The notes under the pieces were generated by a model. The model saw nothing but the letters and a program-made list of their open reading frames with translations. It had not been told where the DNA came from and did no database searches. Below are positions 977 to 10,498 of a DNA stretch of 25,429 nt, piece after piece (the stretch's first letter is position 1; the number at the start of each line of letters is the position of its first letter). The DNA is from a virus. The position numbers and the translations under genes are program-made. The stretch covers positions 1 through 25,429 of the IMG/VR virus record IMGVR_UViG_3300024344_000118. One strand, 5' to 3'.

Positions 977-1538
977 CGATCTTTTCCATTATTTTTAAAT
1001 TTTTTGTATACTGTCTGTAATCAGGTCTTAGCTTATCGTATTTTTTCCAAAGAGTATTAGCTTGTTTTCCAATCTTACCCTCAAATGGACAAGGTGTTCC
1101 CGCTTGTACCATTGCTTCAAACACACGTGGGTCTTGACAAAGAAGAGATATTGCAGCTACTTTCATACCCATTGAATCTAATTGTCTTGATAGTTTTATT
1201 CTTTCACAGTTTTCATCTCTAAATGTTTTACCACCAGAGACACCCAAACCAAAAGTTTGAACTCCTGCACTTGCTCCAACACTACATACATCAACGCCAG
1301 ATGAGTTTACACCAGGAGCAAAAGCACTTGGTGGTGCTGATCTTATGTTAGAAGTTGAATTGTTTGTTGTAGTTGAACTTGAACTTGATCCTGATTGATA
1401 AGTTGTAGAAGATGTGTATCCACCTTCAATGGCTGTGTTAGATCCGGATGTATTATTTTGTGTTGATCCAGCATTAGCATCACTTGTTAAAGCAAGTGAT
1501 ATAACTATTGCTAATAAAAACTGCCTAATCTTTTTCAT
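921..1538 (-). CDS. Secreted Ser/Thr-rich conserved marine-phage protein, function unknown
   Basis: A 205-aa protein. Residues 1-23 (MKKIRQFLLAIVISLALTSDANA) form a clear Sec signal peptide with an ANA cleavage site. Residues 24-70 are low-complexity Ser/Thr/Asn. About residues 70-170 form a compact domain with four or five cysteines (DVCSVG, ENCERIKL, LLCQDPRVF, GTPCPFEG), so disulfides in the periplasm are plausible. The C-terminal tail is Lys-rich. From memory, proteins with this Ser/Thr-rich start followed by MGMKVAA and GTPCP motifs recur in marine phage genomes as hypotheticals. It overlaps its upstream neighbour by 14 bp and its downstream neighbour by 56 bp. The latter's signal peptide is encoded within its last codons. 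Possible roles are envelope modification, superinfection exclusion or lysis accessory; none can be shown from the sequence. Confidence 0.85.
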   Translation of the reverse strand: MKKIRQFLLAIVISLALTSDANAGSTQNNTSGSNTAIEGGYTSSTTYQSGSSSSSTTTNNSTSNIRSAPPSAFAPGVNSSGVDVCSVGASAGVQTFGLGVSGGKTFRDENCERIKLSRQLDSMGMKVAAISLLCQDPRVFEAMVQAGTPCPFEGKIGKQANTLWKKYDKLRPDYRQYTKNLKIMEKIDEKTIVIKPLPPIKSKSQ

Positions 1539-2175
1539 CTTTTTTATCTACCTCATAAAACATTCTGTCAGAGTCCTCAGTAATCAGCCCTTTGTTCTCA
1601 ACATTCCAATAGGTTGTTTGTACTTTGTAGTCTGGCCAGTTGTTCTTTACTGTGAAGCTTGGAACACTCCAGATTAATCTATTGTTTGGTTGAGCGGCAA
1701 AGTTGCCGTTGTCTAAAGCAAGAACATGAGCACACTTATGTTCTTGAGGTATTTCTGAGTGCTCTACATCTAGTATATTACTATCTGGAGCGGCCCAGTC
1801 AATGGTAAATAAGTATTCACCATGATAAAATTTTTTGTCTATGCCTCTAAATTTACCTTTTTCGCCTACTAAAAAATCAAAGCAATGCACACTAGGATGA
1901 TAACTAAAACAGTTCCACAGTTCCAACTCGTGTACTGACATATCCGGCACTTTGGCTCGGTCATGCGATTTTTGGAAAAACGCTGAGATAGGCAGTCTCC
2001 AATAACACGCACCGTTCTCCAGCATACAGTGGAATAGTATGGCACGTCCTGCAATACTTGTGATACCGAAGACCACAACGTCTTCAGCCTCTCCGTGATG
2101 TTCTTGTAAATCATATAAATATTCTCTCCTTATCTGACAATAGATTGGTGGTATATTTGCATTTAAATAAGCCAT
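1525..2175 (-). CDS. Conserved hypothetical phage protein (216 aa)
   Basis: A 216-aa soluble-looking protein with no signal peptide or membrane segment. It is rich in aromatic residues and histidines: YWRLPISAFF, ELELWNCFSYHPSVHCFDFL and FTIDWAAPDSN, then a C-terminal part with EHKCAHVLALDNGNF and RLIWSVPSFTVK. It follows the DNA polymerase stop by 2 bp and overlaps the next gene by 14 bp, so it is likely the tail of the replication operon. I recall close relatives in marine podovirus-like genomes next to replication genes, always unnamed. The several Cys and His residues (CMLENGACYW, HCF, HKCAH) could bind metal, but no recognised zinc motif is evident. Function unknown. Confidence 0.85.
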   Translation of the reverse strand: MAYLNANIPPIYCQIRREYLYDLQEHHGEAEDVVVFGITSIAGRAILFHCMLENGACYWRLPISAFFQKSHDRAKVPDMSVHELELWNCFSYHPSVHCFDFLVGEKGKFRGIDKKFYHGEYLFTIDWAAPDSNILDVEHSEIPQEHKCAHVLALDNGNFAAQPNNRLIWSVPSFTVKNNWPDYKVQTTYWNVENKGLITEDSDRMFYEVDKKDEKD

Positions 2176-2177
2176 AG

Positions 2178-4034
2178 TTAATCATAAATATCGCCCCAAG
2201 TTTCGCCTGATTCATAGTCAACTTTGTTTGGGACTTCCAAGTTAACGGCATTTTCCATAATCTCAATAATTTTTTTAGCATGATTCTCAGACTCAACTGA
2301 TAAATCTAATTCATCATGAATTTGTATATGTGCTATAATACCTTCTTTGTAAAGTTCTAACATTGACTTTTTTGTCATGTCTGCTGCAGAGCCTTGTATT
2401 AATTTATTTAGTGCTTTGTATGTGTAAGCTCTCTTAATTCCTGGTCCGTGTTCCTTGAGTGCCTCTTCATGAGGCATGGCTTTATGCATACCAAACTGAT
2501 TTGGCTCCCATAGATGAAACCTGCATAGTCGTCCTAGTAAAGTTCTTATCTGTCCACGGTCTTGTGCACGATTAGATGCTGCACTCATTAACTGTTTTAC
2601 AAAAGGAACTTTTTTATGATATTGATTAAATAATTCTTCTGCCTTTTCTTTCGTAACACCTAATTCTGCTTGTAATTTATTTTTACCCATACCATAGAAT
2701 AAACCTAAATTAATTGTTTTAGCTTGTGATCTTGGTATCTGCGCCATGTCTGCAACGATCTGGTGAAAGTCTGTTGAGATATCACTATTATATGCTTCAA
2801 TAACTTCGTAAACAGATGGAAACTTATATAAAGATGCATAGTGCACAACTAGTCTTGGTTCTTGTTGTGAGTAATCAAAACATCCCCAGGTATGTCCCTC
2901 CTCTGGTAAAAATAAAGATCTAATTAGTGGTCCTAGGTCCTTGTTCCTTGCTGGTAGTTGCTGTAAGTTTGGATTATTGTAACTAAATCTACCTGTTACA
3001 GTTCCGCCTTGATCTGATCTTATTTGATTAATATCTGCATGTATTCTACCTTTGTGTTCATATCTAATTATTGTATCAATAAATGTTGTATGAGCCTTGT
3101 TTATCTCTCTAGCTTTTGCTATTCTTTGAACCATGGGATGCTTATGTTCTTGAAGAAAGTTTTTGGTAAAAGATGGTGACTCTGTTTTTTCAGTTCTGGA
3201 ATAATCTAATCCAAGTTTGTCGAAAACTTTGGCGATGCTACGTGCGGCCCATATTTGAACATCTATTTGTGTTTCTTTTTCAACTTCTTGCAGTAATTGT
3301 GCTTCTTGTTTTGACAATTGTTTTTTCAGTGTATGAGCTCTTTCGACATCGACGCGAACCCCTTTAAATCTCATATCAACTAAACAAGGGAATAAATCAG
3401 TTTCTAAATTAAAAATAGATTCTATATCTTGATGAATAATTTCTCGTTTCATAACTTGCCAAAGTTCCAATGTTAACTCTGCATCTCTTTCTGCGTATGC
3501 TCCTACTTCCATGGCAGGTAGTTGCCATAGATCTTGTTTTGGATCTAAACCACGTGATTTAGCTGCTTCTATTAATGCATTTTCTGATTTACCATAACCA
3601 AGATAGTCCCAACCTAAACTATTTAAACTGTATTGAAAACGATTCTCATCTACAAGTGATGCAGCAATCATCGTGTCTACTATTAAACCATTAATTTTTA
3701 TACCTAACTGACGTAACCAACACACATCATACATTGCATTGTGAAATATTTTGACAGAAGTTGTAGACATGATATCTTGAAACCATGATAAGACTTTTTT
3801 TCGATGCATATTTTGACCTGATGCGTGAGCAATCGGAAAATAAAATTTCCGACCAGGAACAGCAACAGCGATTCCAACAACGTCGCCATTTCCTATCACC
3901 GATCCTGAGCCTAATTTTTTTAAATCAGGATCACGAGTCTCTAAGTCAATCGCAATCTCGTCGTAAGATCTAAGATCTGGAAACTCTTCCGGCTCTACCC
4001 ATTCGGTTTGTGCAACAAAAAGAGGAACTTTCAT
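2178..4034 (-). CDS. polA-like: Family A DNA polymerase (3'-5' exonuclease plus polymerase), Leu at the 762-equivalent position
   Basis: A 618-aa replicative polymerase of the Pol I/T7 gp5 class without a 5'-3' exonuclease. The proofreading domain is intact: D30-x-E32 (AIDLET), D103 in FHNAMYD, and Y180-x3-D184 (YAERD). Polymerase motif A is FDYSQQE (D387), motif B is RSQAKTINLGLFYG (R435, K439, Y447), and motif C is IHDE (H573, D574, E575). The residue equivalent to E. coli Pol I Phe762 is Leu443 (INLGLFYG). This position affects ribo/dideoxy discrimination and speed in characterised enzymes, and Leu variants are known to be common in virome surveys. ATG at 4034 overlaps the DUF3310 gene stop as ATGA, so translation is probably coupled. 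All catalytic residues are present. It would work with the primase and helicases encoded upstream. Confidence 0.97.
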   Translation of the reverse strand: MKVPLFVAQTEWVEPEEFPDLRSYDEIAIDLETRDPDLKKLGSGSVIGNGDVVGIAVAVPGRKFYFPIAHASGQNMHRKKVLSWFQDIMSTTSVKIFHNAMYDVCWLRQLGIKINGLIVDTMIAASLVDENRFQYSLNSLGWDYLGYGKSENALIEAAKSRGLDPKQDLWQLPAMEVGAYAERDAELTLELWQVMKREIIHQDIESIFNLETDLFPCLVDMRFKGVRVDVERAHTLKKQLSKQEAQLLQEVEKETQIDVQIWAARSIAKVFDKLGLDYSRTEKTESPSFTKNFLQEHKHPMVQRIAKAREINKAHTTFIDTIIRYEHKGRIHADINQIRSDQGGTVTGRFSYNNPNLQQLPARNKDLGPLIRSLFLPEEGHTWGCFDYSQQEPRLVVHYASLYKFPSVYEVIEAYNSDISTDFHQIVADMAQIPRSQAKTINLGLFYGMGKNKLQAELGVTKEKAEELFNQYHKKVPFVKQLMSAASNRAQDRGQIRTLLGRLCRFHLWEPNQFGMHKAMPHEEALKEHGPGIKRAYTYKALNKLIQGSAADMTKKSMLELYKEGIIAHIQIHDELDLSVESENHAKKIIEIMENAVNLEVPNKVDYESGETWGDIYD

Positions 4035-4255
4035 TTATAATCTCTAGCTATAATCATATCGATGTAATGTTTTGCTTTTTCTAAATCTTTCTTTTTACCT
4101 TTTCTAGAGTGTCTCAAAAGATATTTTATTACATTACCTGTTGGAAAATCTAATTTATTTTTTATAATAAATTCTGCAGGTTCTATCACATAATCTTTAT
4201 AGTGATCCCCACCTTTGTCTTTTAACACTGCCTCAAAAAACAATGGGTTTGTCAT
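4031..4255 (-). CDS. DUF3310 (SaV-like) small protein
   Basis: A 74-aa protein with the DUF3310 pattern: a DHYK motif near residues 17-20, then IEPAEFIIKNKLDFPTGNVI and KYLLRH, then an Asp-Leu-Lys-Ala-Lys-His-Tyr helix near the C terminus. This family is frequent in tailed phages near replication and nucleotide genes. It is sometimes labelled nucleotide-kinase-like, but no biochemical role is firmly established to my knowledge and no Walker motif is present. It is linked on both sides by ATGA 4-nt overlaps with the helicase (upstream) and the polymerase (downstream), so it is made with the replisome. The length is normal for the family. Confidence 0.85.
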   Translation of the reverse strand: MTNPLFFEAVLKDKGGDHYKDYVIEPAEFIIKNKLDFPTGNVIKYLLRHSRKGKKKDLEKAKHYIDMIIARDYK

Positions 4256-5670
4256 AAATTATAACCGTACCTTTCTATTTTAGCTCTCATTAAGTAAAGA
4301 TTTTTTCTTGCACGAGTAACACCTACATACCATACTCTATGTTCCTCATCTCTCTTATTTACACTATTCTCAACAGATTGTCTAATCTTCCTAGCGTTAT
4401 CTAAAATTAAAACCACGTTATCAGACTCACCCCCTTTTGCTGCGTGTATGGTAGATAATCTTACTCTTGCGTCCTCGAATAATTTTTCTTTATTTGATAA
4501 CATTAAACGTATATAATCTTTTTGATTTTTTGGTGCGAAAGTAAAGGATTCAAACCAGGTTAATTTTTTATCCATCTTGTCTGTGTATTCTTGTATGTCC
4601 TTCATTTCATTTTCCGTAATACTCTCTCCTTTTGTCCATCTAGTGTAGTTTACAATTGCTTTGTAAAGTTTTACTGTGTAACTCTTTCCCTTTTTAGTTT
4701 CATAATAAACTCCACATTCCTCTAATTGTTTCATGATATCTTTTAATTTAGATGCAGTTCTTGATAATATTAACCAATTACCTTTTGTTGTATCAACTTG
4801 ATTAATATCAGATATGGTTGTTACATTACCCTCTTCATCTTTTGGACTATACCTTTTACCTACTCTAAGTCCTTGTATTCTATTAATTATTGTTTTTGAT
4901 GTTTGTTGAACTTGTGATGGTATTCTGTGTGATTGTGTTAAAAATATTTCTCTACCAGATTCGTTAATAAATCTATTTACATCAGCTCCTGCCCACTGAA
5001 ATATAGCTTGATCATCATCGCCTGCTAAATAAACATCTTGAGATTTTTCTACTAAGACATCATACATTTTCCATTGTAAAGGTGATAGGTCTTGTGCTTC
5101 ATCTATAAACACGACTTCAAACTCAGGACAAACATTTTTTTCTATGAACATAGAAATCATGTCGTTAAAATCTATTAAATTATTTTTAACTTTATATTCT
5201 TTTAAATTTAAAGCTATGTGGGATAGTAGCTCCCACTTAACATCTTCGTTAATATATTCACTTGTGTACCACTCAGATCTTACAGATATATCTTTGTTTC
5301 TAGCTTTGTTAATAATTTGAAAGTATAAATTATCACATGTAAGATAGTGACTTTCTTGATCATTATACTTATCTTGAAAGTTGACTCTTATGTTTAACAT
5401 TTTACCTAAGTCTTCGTAATGGTGAGGTTGCATAATATTTTCTTCTCTAAGTCCAAGTGAATGAAAAGCAAGTGAGTGTAAAGTTTGAAAATATTGTAAT
5501 TCTTTTTTTGGTTTGTTCATTCTTTCTTTTGCTTCGTTAGCAGCTTTTCTTGTAAAAGCAAAATAACCAATCTTGTCTAGCGGTGTATCTATGTCTATGT
5601 AGTGTTTAACTATTTCTAAAAGTTTTGTGGTCTTCCCTGTCCCAGGTGGTCCATAGACTTTTGTTATCAT
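4252..5670 (-). CDS. Compact UvrD/Rep-like SF1 DNA helicase
   Basis: A 472-aa ATP-dependent 3'-5' type SF1 helicase by motif set. Walker A GPPGTGKTT is at residues 7-15, motif Ia AFTRKAANE at 38-46, motif II DEAQD at 190-194, motif III GDDDQAIFQWAGA at 217-229, motif IV QSHR at about 246, motif V STIHAAKGGESD at about 406-417, and motif VI VGVTRARKNL at 449-458. It is much shorter than cellular UvrD (about 720 aa), so the 1B/2B accessory insertions must be small. It begins and ends with ATGA overlaps with the primase and DUF3310 genes. Its likely role is unwinding or accessory helicase for the PolA fork, or recombination. The motifs are complete and nothing looks degenerate. The polarity is inferred from the family, not shown. 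Confidence 0.95.
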   Translation of the reverse strand: MITKVYGPPGTGKTTKLLEIVKHYIDIDTPLDKIGYFAFTRKAANEAKERMNKPKKELQYFQTLHSLAFHSLGLREENIMQPHHYEDLGKMLNIRVNFQDKYNDQESHYLTCDNLYFQIINKARNKDISVRSEWYTSEYINEDVKWELLSHIALNLKEYKVKNNLIDFNDMISMFIEKNVCPEFEVVFIDEAQDLSPLQWKMYDVLVEKSQDVYLAGDDDQAIFQWAGADVNRFINESGREIFLTQSHRIPSQVQQTSKTIINRIQGLRVGKRYSPKDEEGNVTTISDINQVDTTKGNWLILSRTASKLKDIMKQLEECGVYYETKKGKSYTVKLYKAIVNYTRWTKGESITENEMKDIQEYTDKMDKKLTWFESFTFAPKNQKDYIRLMLSNKEKLFEDARVRLSTIHAAKGGESDNVVLILDNARKIRQSVENSVNKRDEEHRVWYVGVTRARKNLYLMRAKIERYGYNL

Positions 5671-7283
5671 AATATATCTTCTCTATCTTTCATAGAAATT
5701 ACTTCGTCTTGATACTCCTCCTTTTTAAAATAAGATTTTAATATTTTAACACAAGTAACATCTGGATTAGATTTTTTATCACCAGATTTTTTTGGATATC
5801 TTTTTCTACAAACAAAATCCTCGTCTTGTATTTTGTACAATGTTTTCATTAACACACCCGTTCTGTCTTCTTTCATCTTCCATTCTTTATTTTTTAAAAA
5901 ATTAAAAAATTTACCCCACACAAAATAAACATACTCATCATCCATTAATGTAGCTCCATTTTTAAATGATGTATGACTGTTAGCTAACACTTGAAACACA
6001 TATTCATTTAAATACTCATGGAGTTTTTCTTCCTGACTAGTTCCCTCTGCTGGTTTAATTAAATCTACTCTACTAAATAATGCTGTTTGTATTTCAAAAA
6101 ATTCAGAATTTTTTATTGTTGGTGGAACTATGTGTGCTTGTTCCATGAGCACACCTTTTAATTCTCTTTGATCTCTAAGTTTGTTGACGTGGTTTGCATG
6201 AATTTGAACTGTTTCACCTCCAGGTTTCTCTACTGTAAAATAGTATTCTGGGTTTGGTTTGTAATCTATCTGTGTAAGATTACTTAACATAGGCCAACTT
6301 TTCTTTTTATCTGATGTAATACCAAATTTTCTTTTAATACAAACAGATTTCATACAATAATTTACTATTGGATCCTCAGAGCAAGTATGACCTTTGGTAT
6401 CTTTTTTCCACTGTTTAATTTTTAATTTTACTTTTTCATCATTCCAATTTGATGAATATACAAAATAGTTTCTAGCAGCTTCTAAAACTTTATCATCCCA
6501 ATTGTCAGGATATTTTTTTTTCGCAAAAACCATATAATTATATAAAAAACGATCTCTACCATCAGTTAATTTATTTTTAGTTAATGCTTGCAAACAAGGC
6601 GGACCATCTATAAACTCTTCTGCCCCACCTGTTAGTTCATCTCTAACCAGCGAGTTTGCAAATTCTTCTAGCTCACTCGCTGTTTTTATGTTTGCATCTA
6701 CAACTTGTAAAAATTGTTCTAAAGTAAACTCTGTTCCATCATGTGGATTAACTGCTACTCTTTCTTTTTTATTATAATATGGAAGATTTATAAAATTACC
6801 ATTGATAGGTGTGTCATTTTCTGTTTTTCCTAATTCTGTTTGTTTTGGAAATATTTCTGTATTTGATTCTAGTTCTAAGACATACAAAAGTTTATCTAAA
6901 AAATTTCTTATAGCCGTAGCTTTTGTCTTTTCTTTTAAAAATATATAAAGGTGTAATCCACCACTTTTTGATTTTACTGGTATAACTGGTAATTTTTTAT
7001 TAACAATAGTTTTTAAATATTTTCTTAAATCAAAATTTTTATAATCTGGATCAATATCTATTGCACCAAACTGTGCCATACCTTCATCATCACAAGGTTG
7101 CACACCAATAGATTTTTTGCCTTTTAAATGTTGAATATAATCAATGTTAGTAATGGGCTTTCCAGCCCAAGCATGTTTAACTCTTAACTTTCCTGTTGTA
7201 GTGTCTTTATAGCCGTTGGAAACATCAGCATAACCATAGTCTCTTTTTAATCCATTAAATATCTCTATAAATTTCTGTTCCAT
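5667..7283 (-). CDS. Archaeo-eukaryotic-type (AEP, TOTE-like) primase with C-terminal cysteine motif
   Basis: A 538-aa protein. The N-terminal third carries AEP catalytic signatures: D76-x-D78 (GAIDIDPD) for metal binding, the SKSGGLH segment (H111) for nucleotide binding, EIFPKQ at 143-148 and NGNFINLPYYN at 161-171, the order seen in TOTE-type AEP primases. A second region has four cysteines, C230 (GPPC), C301, C310 and C315 (C-x8-C-x4-C). This resembles the cysteine set of primase C-terminal or PriL-like Fe-S or zinc sites. The last 200 residues are Lys-rich and unrecognised. No DnaG/TOPRIM motif is present. It would make primers for the polymerase. There is no Shine-Dalgarno before ATG 7283; instead a strong hairpin ends about 8 bases upstream. 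The primase call is by motif; primer synthesis is an inference. Confidence 0.8.
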   Translation of the reverse strand: MEQKFIEIFNGLKRDYGYADVSNGYKDTTTGKLRVKHAWAGKPITNIDYIQHLKGKKSIGVQPCDDEGMAQFGAIDIDPDYKNFDLRKYLKTIVNKKLPVIPVKSKSGGLHLYIFLKEKTKATAIRNFLDKLLYVLELESNTEIFPKQTELGKTENDTPINGNFINLPYYNKKERVAVNPHDGTEFTLEQFLQVVDANIKTASELEEFANSLVRDELTGGAEEFIDGPPCLQALTKNKLTDGRDRFLYNYMVFAKKKYPDNWDDKVLEAARNYFVYSSNWNDEKVKLKIKQWKKDTKGHTCSEDPIVNYCMKSVCIKRKFGITSDKKKSWPMLSNLTQIDYKPNPEYYFTVEKPGGETVQIHANHVNKLRDQRELKGVLMEQAHIVPPTIKNSEFFEIQTALFSRVDLIKPAEGTSQEEKLHEYLNEYVFQVLANSHTSFKNGATLMDDEYVYFVWGKFFNFLKNKEWKMKEDRTGVLMKTLYKIQDEDFVCRKRYPKKSGDKKSNPDVTCVKILKSYFKKEEYQDEVISMKDREDIL

Positions 7284-7291
7284 GCGATTTG

Positions 7292-7319
7292 AAAATGGGC
7301 AGTTTTAGCTGCCCATTTT
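7292..7319. terminator. Strong hairpin with T-run, possible terminator or attenuator
   Basis: An 11-bp perfect stem, AAAATGGGCAG (7292-7302) with CTGCCCATTTT (7309-7319), has a 6-nt loop (ttttag). On the plus strand it is followed by TGTTTAAAC and on the minus strand by a CAAATCGC segment after four Ts. It fills the gap between the 254-aa gene (stop at 7328) and the primase start (7283), both on the minus strand. It looks like a bidirectional rho-independent terminator. In the direction of the operon it would reduce read-through into the primase gene, or occlude its translation start, which lacks a visible Shine-Dalgarno. Confidence 0.75.
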
Positions 7320-7327
7320 TGTTTAAA

Positions 7328-8092
7328 CTAAATAGGTGAATTAGTTTTATTAGAGTTATCGCCATGCTTAACTTGAATGTCTCCTTTTGAAACACTGTCA
7401 GAAAAAGCTTTAGCTTGTTGATACATAGAGGCATCTGCCACCTGTTCAACTTTACTAACTTCCCAACCAAACCATGTACCTTTATCATTAGATTGTTGCA
7501 CGGTTTTTAAATTATAAATGTGGCTAAAAGATGCTGGAGTAAATAATCCATTCTTACCTTTTAGTTTTATACTCTGCATCATGCTGTTCCATTTTCTACT
7601 AATTTTTAATTGAGTAGATTTCATTGCAATTAATGCAGTTGACGGAGTTTCCCCCATGGTTATCACAAAGTGACTAGCTGTCTTTTCAATATAATTACCG
7701 TTTTGTAATCTATCTTTGTAGTCAGCTCCTCTTGTTGTTTGTGATAAAATATCACTAGTTGATGGATGAATTTGAATGGGAGCTCCCGGGCCATCGCCTC
7801 TGTCCTTCCATTCAATGTATTCCAATCTGTAATGACATGGAATAACATTTAATCCTTTTTCTCCATTAAACAACTCAGAAGTTACAGAGTTGTAAATCAT
7901 GCCAGGTTCTGCACCTTCAACATATTTACCATCTCTTTTATTAACCTCTGGAGATAGTTGTCCTAGTATCTTTAGAAAAGGTAATGCTAAATCTTCTTGA
8001 GTTAGATTACCGATTCCTTTATTTGCATCAGCTTCAAAAACATTTGTTGCTAATGCATTTTCTTTTTTCGTTGTTACTTGTGCTTTGCTCAT
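7328..8092 (-). CDS. Conserved early phage protein, candidate ssDNA-binding role
   Basis: A 254-aa soluble protein with no signal or membrane segment. Residues about 20-75 contain EADANKGIGNLTQEDLALPF and SPEVNKRDGKYVEGAEPGMI, followed by a beta-rich core (NVIPCHYRLEYIEWKDRG; TALIAMKSTQLKISRKWNSM). I recall near-identical opening motifs in marine phage hypotheticals near primase/helicase genes. The position just before the primase suggests a replication role such as single-strand binding or recombination. It lacks the acidic C-terminal tail of classical SSBs, so that is conjecture from neighbourhood. An AAGGA about 11 nt upstream of ATG 8092 supports the start. The gene ends just before a strong hairpin. 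Confidence 0.8.
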   Translation of the reverse strand: MSKAQVTTKKENALATNVFEADANKGIGNLTQEDLALPFLKILGQLSPEVNKRDGKYVEGAEPGMIYNSVTSELFNGEKGLNVIPCHYRLEYIEWKDRGDGPGAPIQIHPSTSDILSQTTRGADYKDRLQNGNYIEKTASHFVITMGETPSTALIAMKSTQLKISRKWNSMMQSIKLKGKNGLFTPASFSHIYNLKTVQQSNDKGTWFGWEVSKVEQVADASMYQQAKAFSDSVSKGDIQVKHGDNSNKTNSPI

Positions 8093-8097
8093 CGTTC

Positions 8098-8649
8098 TTA
8101 TTTCCTTGTTATTTTGGTTCTGTTTCCTGAGAACACGTTAAATAGTTCAGAGGGCATATCTAGTCCATTTTCGATACGCTCTCTGACTAAAGCTTTAAGT
8201 GTCATAGGTTCAACCTTTAATTTTTGGACAGGTTGATATCCCCGACTCTGTGCAAGGTTAGCATAATTTGCTGCCTTGTTATCTTCGTTACGACCAAAGG
8301 AAACAGTTACCTCATTTTTAATAAGGTCACCTAGGTCGTTATCTCGAAGCCATTTAAATGCTTCTTCTTTCCTTGCGGTAGGGATAGAAGCACCGTAGAC
8401 GGGTTTCACTTCAACAGCGGATCCGTCTGCTAATTTCATTGTTCTCACATTCATCTCTTGCATCATAGTTGGTATAACTTCACCTCCAACCATTTCTATT
8501 TTCTTTTTAAGTTCTTTAATGTGAGCCTCTGTATCTGCGAGTTCATCTTCTAGTTTTTGTAGTTTTACTACTTGTGAAGATAAATCACCAACGTCATCTA
8601 TTTTAGATAATGAAGATGTTTGATCTTCCTCAAAGTTTATTTTACTCAT
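8098..8649 (-). CDS. Conserved early phage protein with N-terminal coiled coil
   Basis: A 183-aa protein. Residues about 20-55 (QVVKLQKLEDELADTEAHIK and following) predict a coiled coil with heptad Leu/Ile/Val. A C-terminal globular part of about 120 residues contains VKPVYGASIPTARKEEAF and KNEVTVSFGRNEDN. An ideal AAAGGAG lies 7 nt before ATG 8649, inside the last codons of the upstream 118-aa gene, giving an 8-bp overlap and probable coupling. I recall this family as an unnamed protein in marine and other alphaproteobacterial phages near replication genes. A Gam-like or structural coiled-coil protein would be an alternative, but no diagnostic motif is seen. Function unknown. Confidence 0.82.
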   Translation of the reverse strand: MSKINFEEDQTSSLSKIDDVGDLSSQVVKLQKLEDELADTEAHIKELKKKIEMVGGEVIPTMMQEMNVRTMKLADGSAVEVKPVYGASIPTARKEEAFKWLRDNDLGDLIKNEVTVSFGRNEDNKAANYANLAQSRGYQPVQKLKVEPMTLKALVRERIENGLDMPSELFNVFSGNRTKITRK

Positions 8650-8998
8650 CTATTTCTCCTTTCTCATATAGATTGATTTGAATGGGATAATATCTTCTTT
8701 CTTGTTTATCCCATTTTAGTAAATTATATTTACCGTTTGTTATGTCGGACACAACAGAACAAGCAACACCTATTATAGCAGGATCTCCTGTTAATAATAG
8801 ATAATCTTCTGGTTTATAATCTCGTAACATTTTACGAAGTTTAAATACCAAAGGTCCAGGTGATAAAATAATTTGAGAAGTTTCTGGTAACAAAACTTTT
8901 AACCTCCCATATTCAGACGCACCTATAATATTTATTTTAGGGCGACCATCCCTTGTGCCAGGTATATCTTGTAGTATGTAAACAAAATTTTCCTTCAT
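8642..8998 (-). CDS. Conserved hypothetical early protein, first gene of the leftward early operon
   Basis: A 118-aa alpha/beta protein. Visible segments are FVYILQDIPGTRDGRP at the start, YGRLKVLLPETSQIILSPGP, then DYLLLTGDPAIIGVACSVV and a C-terminal KWDKQERRYYPIQI strand. I recall this pattern as a very common unnamed marine phage protein. The alternating hydrophobic strands and GDPAxxG loop suggest a small nucleotide- or nucleic-acid-associated fold, but no catalytic motif can be named. It is the first minus-strand gene after the divergent promoter region and has only a weak Shine-Dalgarno (AAGAAAG). The leader is short whichever promoter is used. Confidence 0.82.
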   Translation of the reverse strand: MKENFVYILQDIPGTRDGRPKINIIGASEYGRLKVLLPETSQIILSPGPLVFKLRKMLRDYKPEDYLLLTGDPAIIGVACSVVSDITNGKYNLLKWDKQERRYYPIQINLYEKGEIDE

Positions 8999-9064: not shown

Positions 9065-10498
9065 ATGGATTATAAGTTTAAGACAAAGCCATTCGCACAT
9101 CAATTAAAAGCTTTGGAGTTGTCATGGAAAAAACAAAATTTTGCCTATTTTATGGAGATGGGTACAGGAAAGTCTAAGGTATTAATAGATAATATATCCA
9201 TGCTTTATGATAATGGTAAGATCAATGGTGTCTTAATTGTGGCACCCAAAGGTGTGTATAAAAACTGGTATGACATAGAGATACCCACACACATGGTTGA
9301 TCACATAGAAAAAAATGTGGTGCTTTGGCAAGCCAATATTACACAAAAACAAAAATTAAAATTAAAAACTTTATTTAAAGCAGGTGAAGATTTAAACGTT
9401 TTAATTATGAATGTGGAGGCTTTTTCAACTAAAAAAGGAGTTGATTTTGCTGAAAGATTTTTAGCATGTCACAAAGCCATGATTGCTATTGATGAATCAA
9501 CCACTATAAAAAATCCTGGTGCTAAAAGAACAAAAAATATTTTGTCTCTATCTAGGTATGGTAAGTATAAAAGAATATTAACAGGATCTCCGGTTACTAA
9601 ATCACCATTAGATTTATATACACAGTGCGAGTTCCTTGATCCGTGGTTATTGGGTCATAGTTCTTACTACACGTTTAGGACTCGATATGCTCTAATGAAA
9701 ACCGCTAACTTTGGTGGTCGTTCTGTGCAAATCGTAGTTGGTTATAGAAATCTAGGAGAACTGTCTGATAAACTAAAATCTTTTTCTTACAGAGTTTTAA
9801 AAGATGATTGTTTAGATTTACCAGAAAAAACATACATGAAACGAATTATACAATTAACACCAGAGCAATCTAAAGTTTATAATCAAATGAAACAACTAGC
9901 GCTTGCTGAGCTAAATGGTAAAGTCGTTACCACTGCAACAGTTTTAACTCAACTTATGCGACTTCATCAGATAACAGCAGGTCATTTTAAATCAGATGAT
10001 GGTGAGGTTCAAAATTTAAAAAATGAAAGAATCACAGAACTTACTAACATCTTAAATGAGATTAGTGGAAAAGTTGTAATATGGGCACATTGGAGAAACG
10101 ACATAGAAACAATTATTGAACATCTTAAAAAAGAGTATGGGGATAACTCAGTGGTTACTTACTACGGAAAAACAAGTTTGGACGACAGACAAAGTGCCAT
10201 TAAAAAAATGCAAGATCCAAATAGCAGCGTTAGATTTTTAGTTGGCACTCCGCAAACAGGAGGATATGGTATCACTCTTACTGGTGCATCCACCATGATT
10301 TATTATTCTAACGGTTATGACTTATTACTAAGACAACAATCAGAGGCTCGTATTGATCGTATCGGTCAAACAAAGAATATAAACTACATAGATATTATTT
10401 GTGAGGGAACCATTGATGAGAAGATTGTTAAAGCCTTAAGAAAAAAAATTAATATTGCAACAGAAATAATGGGAGAGGAGCTTAAAGATTGGATATGA
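9065..10498 (+). CDS. SNF2-type SF2 helicase/ATPase
   Basis: A 477-aa protein with the full SF2/Snf2 set. The Q-motif-like FAHQLKAL is at residues 10-17, motif I MEMGTGKS at 30-37, motif Ia LIVAPKGVYKNW at 57-68, motif II DESTTIKN at 143-150 (DEST in place of DEAH/DEGH), motif III LTGSP at 172-176, motif V GGYGITLT at 399-406 and motif VI QSEARIDRIGQ at 425-435. The length is that of a bare two-lobe translocase, with no accessory chromatin-type domains. Relatives are common in marine phages. The role may be fork remodelling, displacement of proteins from DNA, or recombination; it is not proved. It is the only large plus-strand gene and is transcribed away from the replication operon. The Shine-Dalgarno is weak. 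Confidence 0.94.
   Translation: MDYKFKTKPFAHQLKALELSWKKQNFAYFMEMGTGKSKVLIDNISMLYDNGKINGVLIVAPKGVYKNWYDIEIPTHMVDHIEKNVVLWQANITQKQKLKLKTLFKAGEDLNVLIMNVEAFSTKKGVDFAERFLACHKAMIAIDESTTIKNPGAKRTKNILSLSRYGKYKRILTGSPVTKSPLDLYTQCEFLDPWLLGHSSYYTFRTRYALMKTANFGGRSVQIVVGYRNLGELSDKLKSFSYRVLKDDCLDLPEKTYMKRIIQLTPEQSKVYNQMKQLALAELNGKVVTTATVLTQLMRLHQITAGHFKSDDGEVQNLKNERITELTNILNEISGKVVIWAHWRNDIETIIEHLKKEYGDNSVVTYYGKTSLDDRQSAIKKMQDPNSSVRFLVGTPQTGGYGITLTGASTMIYYSNGYDLLLRQQSEARIDRIGQTKNINYIDIICEGTIDEKIVKALRKKINIATEIMGEELKDWI

Follow-up and report, generated by a model that had tools for sequence, protein, structure and literature searches.

A phage operon pairing a Leu762-type PolA with an AEP primase and a compact UvrD-like helicase that are inherited together

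Introduction

Which enzymes prime and unwind DNA for the family A DNA polymerases (PolAs) of phages that carry leucine at the position of E. coli Phe762? The question is raised by IMG/VR virus record IMGVR_UViG_3300024344_000118, a fragment of 25,429 bases from the incomplete genome of a marine phage (hereafter the window), in which a Leu762-type PolA is encoded beside a DUF3310 protein, a compact UvrD-like superfamily 1 (SF1) helicase and an archaeo-eukaryotic primase (AEP). An original prediction, made from the letters of the window, had read these four genes as one operon and had proposed the AEP and the helicase as the natural partners of a poorly characterised Leu762 class. We find that the AEP and UvrD genes travel together among phages, that residue 762 does not dictate their presence, and that the operon is probably a replication module.

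Phages with Leu762 PolAs rank among the most abundant in viromes from estuaries and the sea, and the helicases that accompany them were named in 2018. According to the accessible part of that paper (Nasko et al. 2018, PMC6302109), Leu762 Group II PolAs adjoin UvrD in 68% and SNF2 in 45% of cases, with UvrD always accompanied by SNF2, and the Leu762 groups use non-ring helicases. The window has three Group II features given there, namely leucine at 762, a UvrD-like neighbour (4252-5670) and an SNF2-like neighbour (9065-10498). The same accessible text names DnaG primases, and for Group II mentions neither an AEP primase nor the gp32-34 genes described below. A tie between Leu762 and SNF2 is also drawn in PMC9069017, and in PMC9599517 the primase serves as a conserved marker for the phylogeny of HTVC023P-type phages. 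The class is thus not novel. The literature that we found, some of it accessible in part, assigns no priming enzyme to Leu762 PolA phages, and no paper stating the AEP-UvrD pairing was found in the open-access literature, a scope too narrow for this to count as proof that there is none.

Results

Organization of the operon

The operon holds as predicted, both in its coordinates and in the identities of its four genes:

2178-4034, minus strand: PolA, family A DNA polymerase, 618 residues (PF00476, E 5e-65; PF01612, E 5e-13)
4031-4255, minus strand: DUF3310 protein, accessory, 74 residues (PF11753, E 2e-11)
4252-5670, minus strand: compact UvrD/PcrA-like SF1 helicase, 472 residues (PF00580, E 4e-31)
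5667-7283, minus strand: AEP primase, Pfam AEP-TOTE, 538 residues (PF22548, 55.5 bits against a cut-off of 27)

The AEP/UvrD, UvrD/DUF3310 and DUF3310/PolA junctions are each a 4-nucleotide ATGA overlap. The cultured relative nearest to the window is pelagiphage HTVC027P, with identities of 65% for PolA, 52% for UvrD and 48% for AEP; the other is phage DSL-LC04, with 58% for the gp34-like protein and 54% for SNF2. Because these are its closest cultured relatives, we place the window, by sequence similarity, among the HTVC023P-type/DSL-LC04 podoviruses, which have genomes of ~58-62 kb.

Co-occurrence of the AEP and UvrD-like proteins

Relatives of the two proteins were sought in an annotated set of 50,697 phage records. 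AEP relatives were found in 24 of these and UvrD relatives in 36, and all 24 AEP records lie within the 36 UvrD records, of which they are the 24 best matches by bit score. UvrD scores are at least 132 bits in AEP-bearing records, and the next best, from Thermus phage Riverbug, is 120. An AEP without UvrD was not seen in any of the 24 AEP-bearing phage records, and the overlap cannot be due to chance. About seven groups are represented: HTVC-type, DSL-LC04, ct3Et533 ("Manatee"), Kokobel2, K21lambda1-type, Acinetobacter SH-Ab 15497-type and Nanhaivirus. When AEP-bearing records were compared with ten phages that have the next most similar PolAs but no AEP match, plus T7, UvrD was present in 13/13 of the former and 0/11 of the latter. 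In at least six phage groups that otherwise differ, AEP and UvrD are passed on as a pair.

The two genes are also neighbors in IMG/VR loci. UvrD lies 3' of AEP on the same strand in 80/80 loci of the window's own clade (with PolA next where the contig extends), in 58/58 Manatee-type loci and in 78/80 DSL-type loci, where the two exceptions must be L184 and L243, whose contigs stop 278 and 26 bp past the AEP match. Gene order differs between types (pol-aep-uvr-snf in the Manatee type versus snf divergent from aep-uvr-pol), and AEP-UvrD adjacency is kept in both. Since these sets overlap slightly and the members of each are mutually related, the counts speak for conserved gene order within each group and cannot be read as hundreds of separate events.

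Contigs collected with PolA as the seed allowed the divergence of the genes to be compared. Their identities to the window are 74-87% for PolA, 68-73% for SNF2, 31-58% for AEP and 41-64% for UvrD, and the identities correlate at 0.76 for AEP with UvrD and at 0.60 for PolA with AEP. In contigs L021-L026, AEP and UvrD are each ~60% identical to the window amid flanking gp34, SNF2 and PolA genes at 84-90%, so by sequence the two appear to change together.

Some loci depart from the usual pattern. Contigs L010-L015 match the window at 98% in PolA, 97-99% in UvrD, 86% in AEP and 76% in gp34 (AEP to gp34 being window 5667-8092), and a recombination breakpoint inside the AEP gene is likely. At L150:118-999 and L152:167-1309, genes that on reading of their sequences resemble homing endonucleases of the HNH and GIY-YIG types sit immediately upstream of UvrD, in the usual place of AEP, and in both contigs the end follows upstream of these genes. 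In L155, a 58647-base contig, five stops interrupt UvrD and SNF2 is split into two short frames; these breaks are probably assembly or sequencing errors. True loss of AEP upstream of PolA was considered for 22 PolA-seeded contigs and rejected, as the upstream sequence is short in all of them.

PolA and residue 762

Alignment to the Klenow fragment confirmed that Leu443 of the window PolA occupies the position of E. coli Phe762. The motifs of the protein are intact, including the 3'-5' exonuclease motifs (DLE and YxxxD), motif A, motif B with Leu443 and motif C (HDE), and it has no 5' nuclease domain. In a tree of 21 PolAs it groups with HTVC027P (support 100/99). A DpoZ (aminoadenine) polymerase identity was rejected, as the score of 355 bits lies below the DpoZ_1 cut-off of 500.

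All readable PolAs in the IMG/VR AEP neighborhood sets (47, 75 and 51) and in the PolA-seeded set (79) have leucine at 762, which agrees with the proposed co-occurrence of Leu762, AEP and UvrD. The rule is broken elsewhere in both directions. Nanhaivirus phages R5C and Pan1 have the same AEP, UvrD and SNF2 families, yet a Phe762 PolA, and their PolAs adjoin those of Phe762 phages without AEP in the tree. Conversely, YuA, CN2 and Epa43 have a Leu762 PolA without AEP or UvrD. A strict bond between AEP and Leu762 is therefore ruled out: residue 762 correlates with the AEP-UvrD pair but is not decisive for it, and does not define the partners. In this lineage PolA has stable partners in AEP and UvrD, as had been proposed, but the two are not specific to the residue.

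Anatomy of the primase and helicase

The AEP protein consists of a catalytic domain, a helical region with four cysteines and a C-terminal domain. Its catalytic motifs are intact (DID76-78, SGGLH107-111 and EIFPKQ143-148), and D76, D78, S107, H111 and E143 are invariant in 40 AEP proteins that are 25-86% identical to the query. Cysteines C230, C301, C310 and C315 are likewise invariant in 40/40, and their spacing could accommodate zinc or an iron-sulphur cluster. PF22548 is matched by 40/40 relatives and PriCT_1 by 16/40. A structure model with a mean pLDDT (predicted local distance difference test) of 86 has the CRISPR-associated Prim-Pol (CAPP) as its best PDB matches (Foldseek E 4.5e-9), its primer initiation complex among them, and in a sequence profile search of the PDB CAPP was the sole match (E 7e-15). 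With the DhD, SxH and third acidic motifs and this fold, the protein fits the TOTE/CAPP branch of the AEP primase superfamily. The Prim-Pol family PF09250 does not describe it, giving a lone sub-threshold match in one control phage, and a scan with the R5C AEP as query returned R5C itself and nothing else.

Pfam labels this domain AEP-TOTE, and TOTE conflict systems combine an AEP with a transposon-type helicase and an endonuclease. The AEP and helicase might thus be a TOTE-type or Gabija-like defence module captured by the phage, and in PADLOC the UvrD resembles GajB and the SNF2 resembles ZorD/DpdE. We regard this origin as very improbable. The 538-residue AEP shows no fused helicase or nuclease, which with its setting does not fit a TOTE conflict system; the operon has no GajA-like partner; the genes belong to a replication operon and occur almost throughout the lineage; and matches to the NCBIfam CRISPR PrimPol and ZorD models fall far under the cut-offs.

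The helicase carries motifs I, II, III, V and VI of the UvrD/Rep/PcrA SF1A helicases in intact form (Walker A GPPGTGKT, DEAQD, QAIFQWAGAD, TIHAAKG and VGVTRA). Its profile aligns to PcrA (1pjr) in two blocks with the region of the 2B domain shortened, positions 368-428 spanning PcrA residues 400-551 (~60 versus ~150 residues); by this alignment, a full-length 2B domain of the UvrD/Rep/PcrA type is not present in the window UvrD. In Rep, removing 2B relieves autoinhibition, so by analogy the window helicase may plausibly be more active.

Searches for a ring helicase and a DnaG-type primase

The original prediction had noted no DnaB- or DnaG-type motif, and a DnaB or gp4 gene elsewhere in the genome would speak against a replisome built on AEP and UvrD. 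DnaB_C (PF03796) was found in 0/66 AEP-bearing whole records (31 + 35), 48/66 of them at least 39 kb long, with the T7 control matched at gp4, and Toprim_2 was found in T7 and in 0/16 AEP-bearing records. No such gene thus appears in the relatives, a statement that does not extend to the window, an incomplete genome that cannot by itself show absence. Judged from its relatives, the replisome would lack the gp4 part of a T7-like gp4-gp5 system.

We consider it probable that the operon is a replication module in which the AEP primes and the UvrD-like helicase unwinds, in place of gp4 or DnaB-DnaG. Several points weigh against this reading. UvrD-type enzymes are usually repair helicases of low processivity. 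The independent lineages number about six or seven, and most IMG/VR loci in each group are close kin. Several genes separate AEP from UvrD in K21lambda1 and DMU1, and two Nanhaivirus phages (L087 and L090) hold a second UvrD-type gene ~19-20 kb from the first. That AEP and UvrD diverge in parallel may be due in part to both evolving faster than PolA. Finally, host dnaG is upregulated during HTVC027P infection (PMC12753301), so the host enzyme could still prime, and host DnaB could act too.

This last point bears on the main rival, which we think unlikely: host DnaB and DnaG would open the fork and prime the lagging strand, leaving repair, restart or translesion synthesis to AEP and UvrD. In other systems Prim-Pols and UvrD take part in repair, and along with dnaG the infection raises host dnaE, dnaN, SOS and excinuclease genes (PMC12753301). 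However, in the loci examined AEP and UvrD are no less constant than PolA, the AEP-bearing records tested yielded no phage gene of DnaB or DnaG type, and the loader or initiator that DnaB recruitment normally needs was not recognised in the operon.

Leu762 Group II is also marked by the absence of ribonucleotide reductase (PMC6302109); HTVC027P lacks the enzyme (PMC12753301). Of 22 AEP-bearing records, the majority of them long, none had a tyrosine integrase, which weakens the case for reading a temperate lifestyle from Leu762.

SNF2, gp32-34-like genes and DUF3310

The four genes are not the whole of the conserved module. The following genes, omitted from the earlier reading, are conserved to the same degree as the primase:

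7328-8092, minus strand: Pam3 gp34-like protein, 254 residues (PF23977, E 4e-69)
8098-8649, minus strand: Pam3 gp33-like protein (PF23984, E 3e-35)
8642-8998, minus strand: Pam3 gp32-like protein (PF23992, E 4e-31)
9065-10498, plus strand: SNF2-type SF2 translocase/helicase, 477 residues, divergent from the operon (PF00176, E 1e-23)

SNF2 is present in 13/13 AEP-bearing records and gp34 in ten AEP-bearing reference phages, and both also occur in YuA, CN2 and Epa43; neither was found in seven Phe762 control phages. The gp33-like gene is present in 10/10 reference phages and the gp32-like gene in 9/10, so the gp32-34-like genes (7328-8998) are as conserved as SNF2 there. SNF2 and gp32-34 form a core that occurs in most groups with a Leu762 PolA, and some branches have the AEP-UvrD pair as well. 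In YuA, a Dda-like helicase is annotated in place of UvrD.

The breadth of SNF2, which includes the UvrD-less YuA, CN2 and Epa43, is what would be expected if a strand-displacing PolA aided by SNF2 advanced the fork, with UvrD minor and the AEP only starting synthesis. Strand displacement was seen in vitro for 2/5 extending Leu762 PolAs, and SNF2 occurs on Leu762 contigs (PMC9069017). The same paper describes SNF2 proteins as translocases without strand separation, and a minor UvrD sits poorly with the lack of any UvrD-less AEP record among the 24; we judge this explanation improbable.

The gp34 model (pLDDT 86) is beta-rich, and its top Foldseek matches include PrgE, RPA, CST and SSB, none of them significant (best E 0.025). 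A PDB sequence search gave no match and the hints of an OB-like fold are weak, so gp34 was not accepted as a single-stranded DNA-binding protein (SSB); an OB-like protein that binds ssDNA is a faint possibility. The DSL-LC04 homologue of the gp33-like protein is annotated "DNA ends protecting". DUF3310, by contrast to its place in the original prediction, is dispensable and ruled out as a core replisome part, being mostly missing outside its own clade (78/80 own-clade, 8/80 DSL-type and 0/58 Manatee-type loci). The gene 3' of PolA (1525-2175, minus strand) matches a PHROG annotated "ferredoxin" with no significant Pfam match; the HTVC027P gene at the equivalent spot is annotated PurM.

Discussion

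In the replication module that we propose, PolA would be the replicative polymerase of an HTVC023P/DSL-LC04-type podovirus, the AEP would make primers as in CAPP, and the compact UvrD-like helicase would open the fork, its reduced 2B region perhaps easing unwinding; together the two would cover the job of gp4 in T7 and of DnaB-DnaG elsewhere. If the helicase translocates 3'-5', as its family suggests, it would move along the template of the leading strand, the opposite of what T7 gp4 does. The opposite-strand SNF2 and the gp32-34-like proteins would be constant auxiliaries, possibly in remodelling and ssDNA binding. Contact between AEP and UvrD is a candidate interaction. A stronger form of the proposal is possible but rather doubtful: that the AEP and the reduced-2B UvrD assemble into one physical helicase-primase, which moves the fork 3'-5' along the leading-strand template with the polarity of CMG and not of DnaB/gp4, a herpes-like SF1-AEP primosome with a family A polymerase, exchanged between phages as a cassette.

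The exclusive AEP-UvrD pairing offers a specific, testable primosome for Leu762 PolA phages. It spans cultured pelagiphages, freshwater phages, Z-genome phages and Nanhaivirus, and it speaks for a choice of partners that does not hinge on residue 762.

Among known systems, the operon is already annotated in pelagiphages HTVC027P and HTVC023P. HTVC027P/HTVC023P-type phages and DSL-LC04 share the gp33-gp34-AEP-UvrD-PolA set and order, with SNF2 on the other strand, at identities to the window of 52-65% for PolA, 30-52% for UvrD and 27-48% for AEP. They are different species, their small intergenic open reading frames vary, and DUF3310 was not detected in DSL-LC04. Nanhaivirus (R5C and Pan1) shares the AEP, UvrD, SNF2 and gp32-34 families, but differs in its Phe762 PolA and in having polymerase III clamp and gamma/tau-like genes beside PolA. 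The Z-genome (2-aminoadenine) siphophages of the SH-Ab 15497/DMU1 type and K21lambda1 have the same AEP, UvrD, SNF2 and gp34 families and a Leu762 PolA; unlike the window, their AEP and UvrD genes are not adjacent, they carry an adenylosuccinate-synthetase-type gene and a separate SSB is annotated. Such Z-genome genes stand alongside the AEP-UvrD-SNF2-gp34 set in L089 and L091, and a dATP triphosphohydrolase is annotated in K21lambda1.

CAPP from Marinitoga, the nearest solved protein to the AEP in fold and sequence, has in common with it a PriCT-like, Cys-bearing C-terminal domain, but has a TPR domain and Cas1-Cas2 as partners. Herpes simplex UL5-UL52, in which an SF1 helicase is paired with an AEP primase and the polymerase is a separate enzyme (PMC8187027), is a functional likeness: UL5 comes from another SF1 branch, there is a third subunit, UL8, and the polymerase is of family B. 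Set against these systems, the window holds a conserved version of a phage replisome class that had been described before, with the primase link as its new part.

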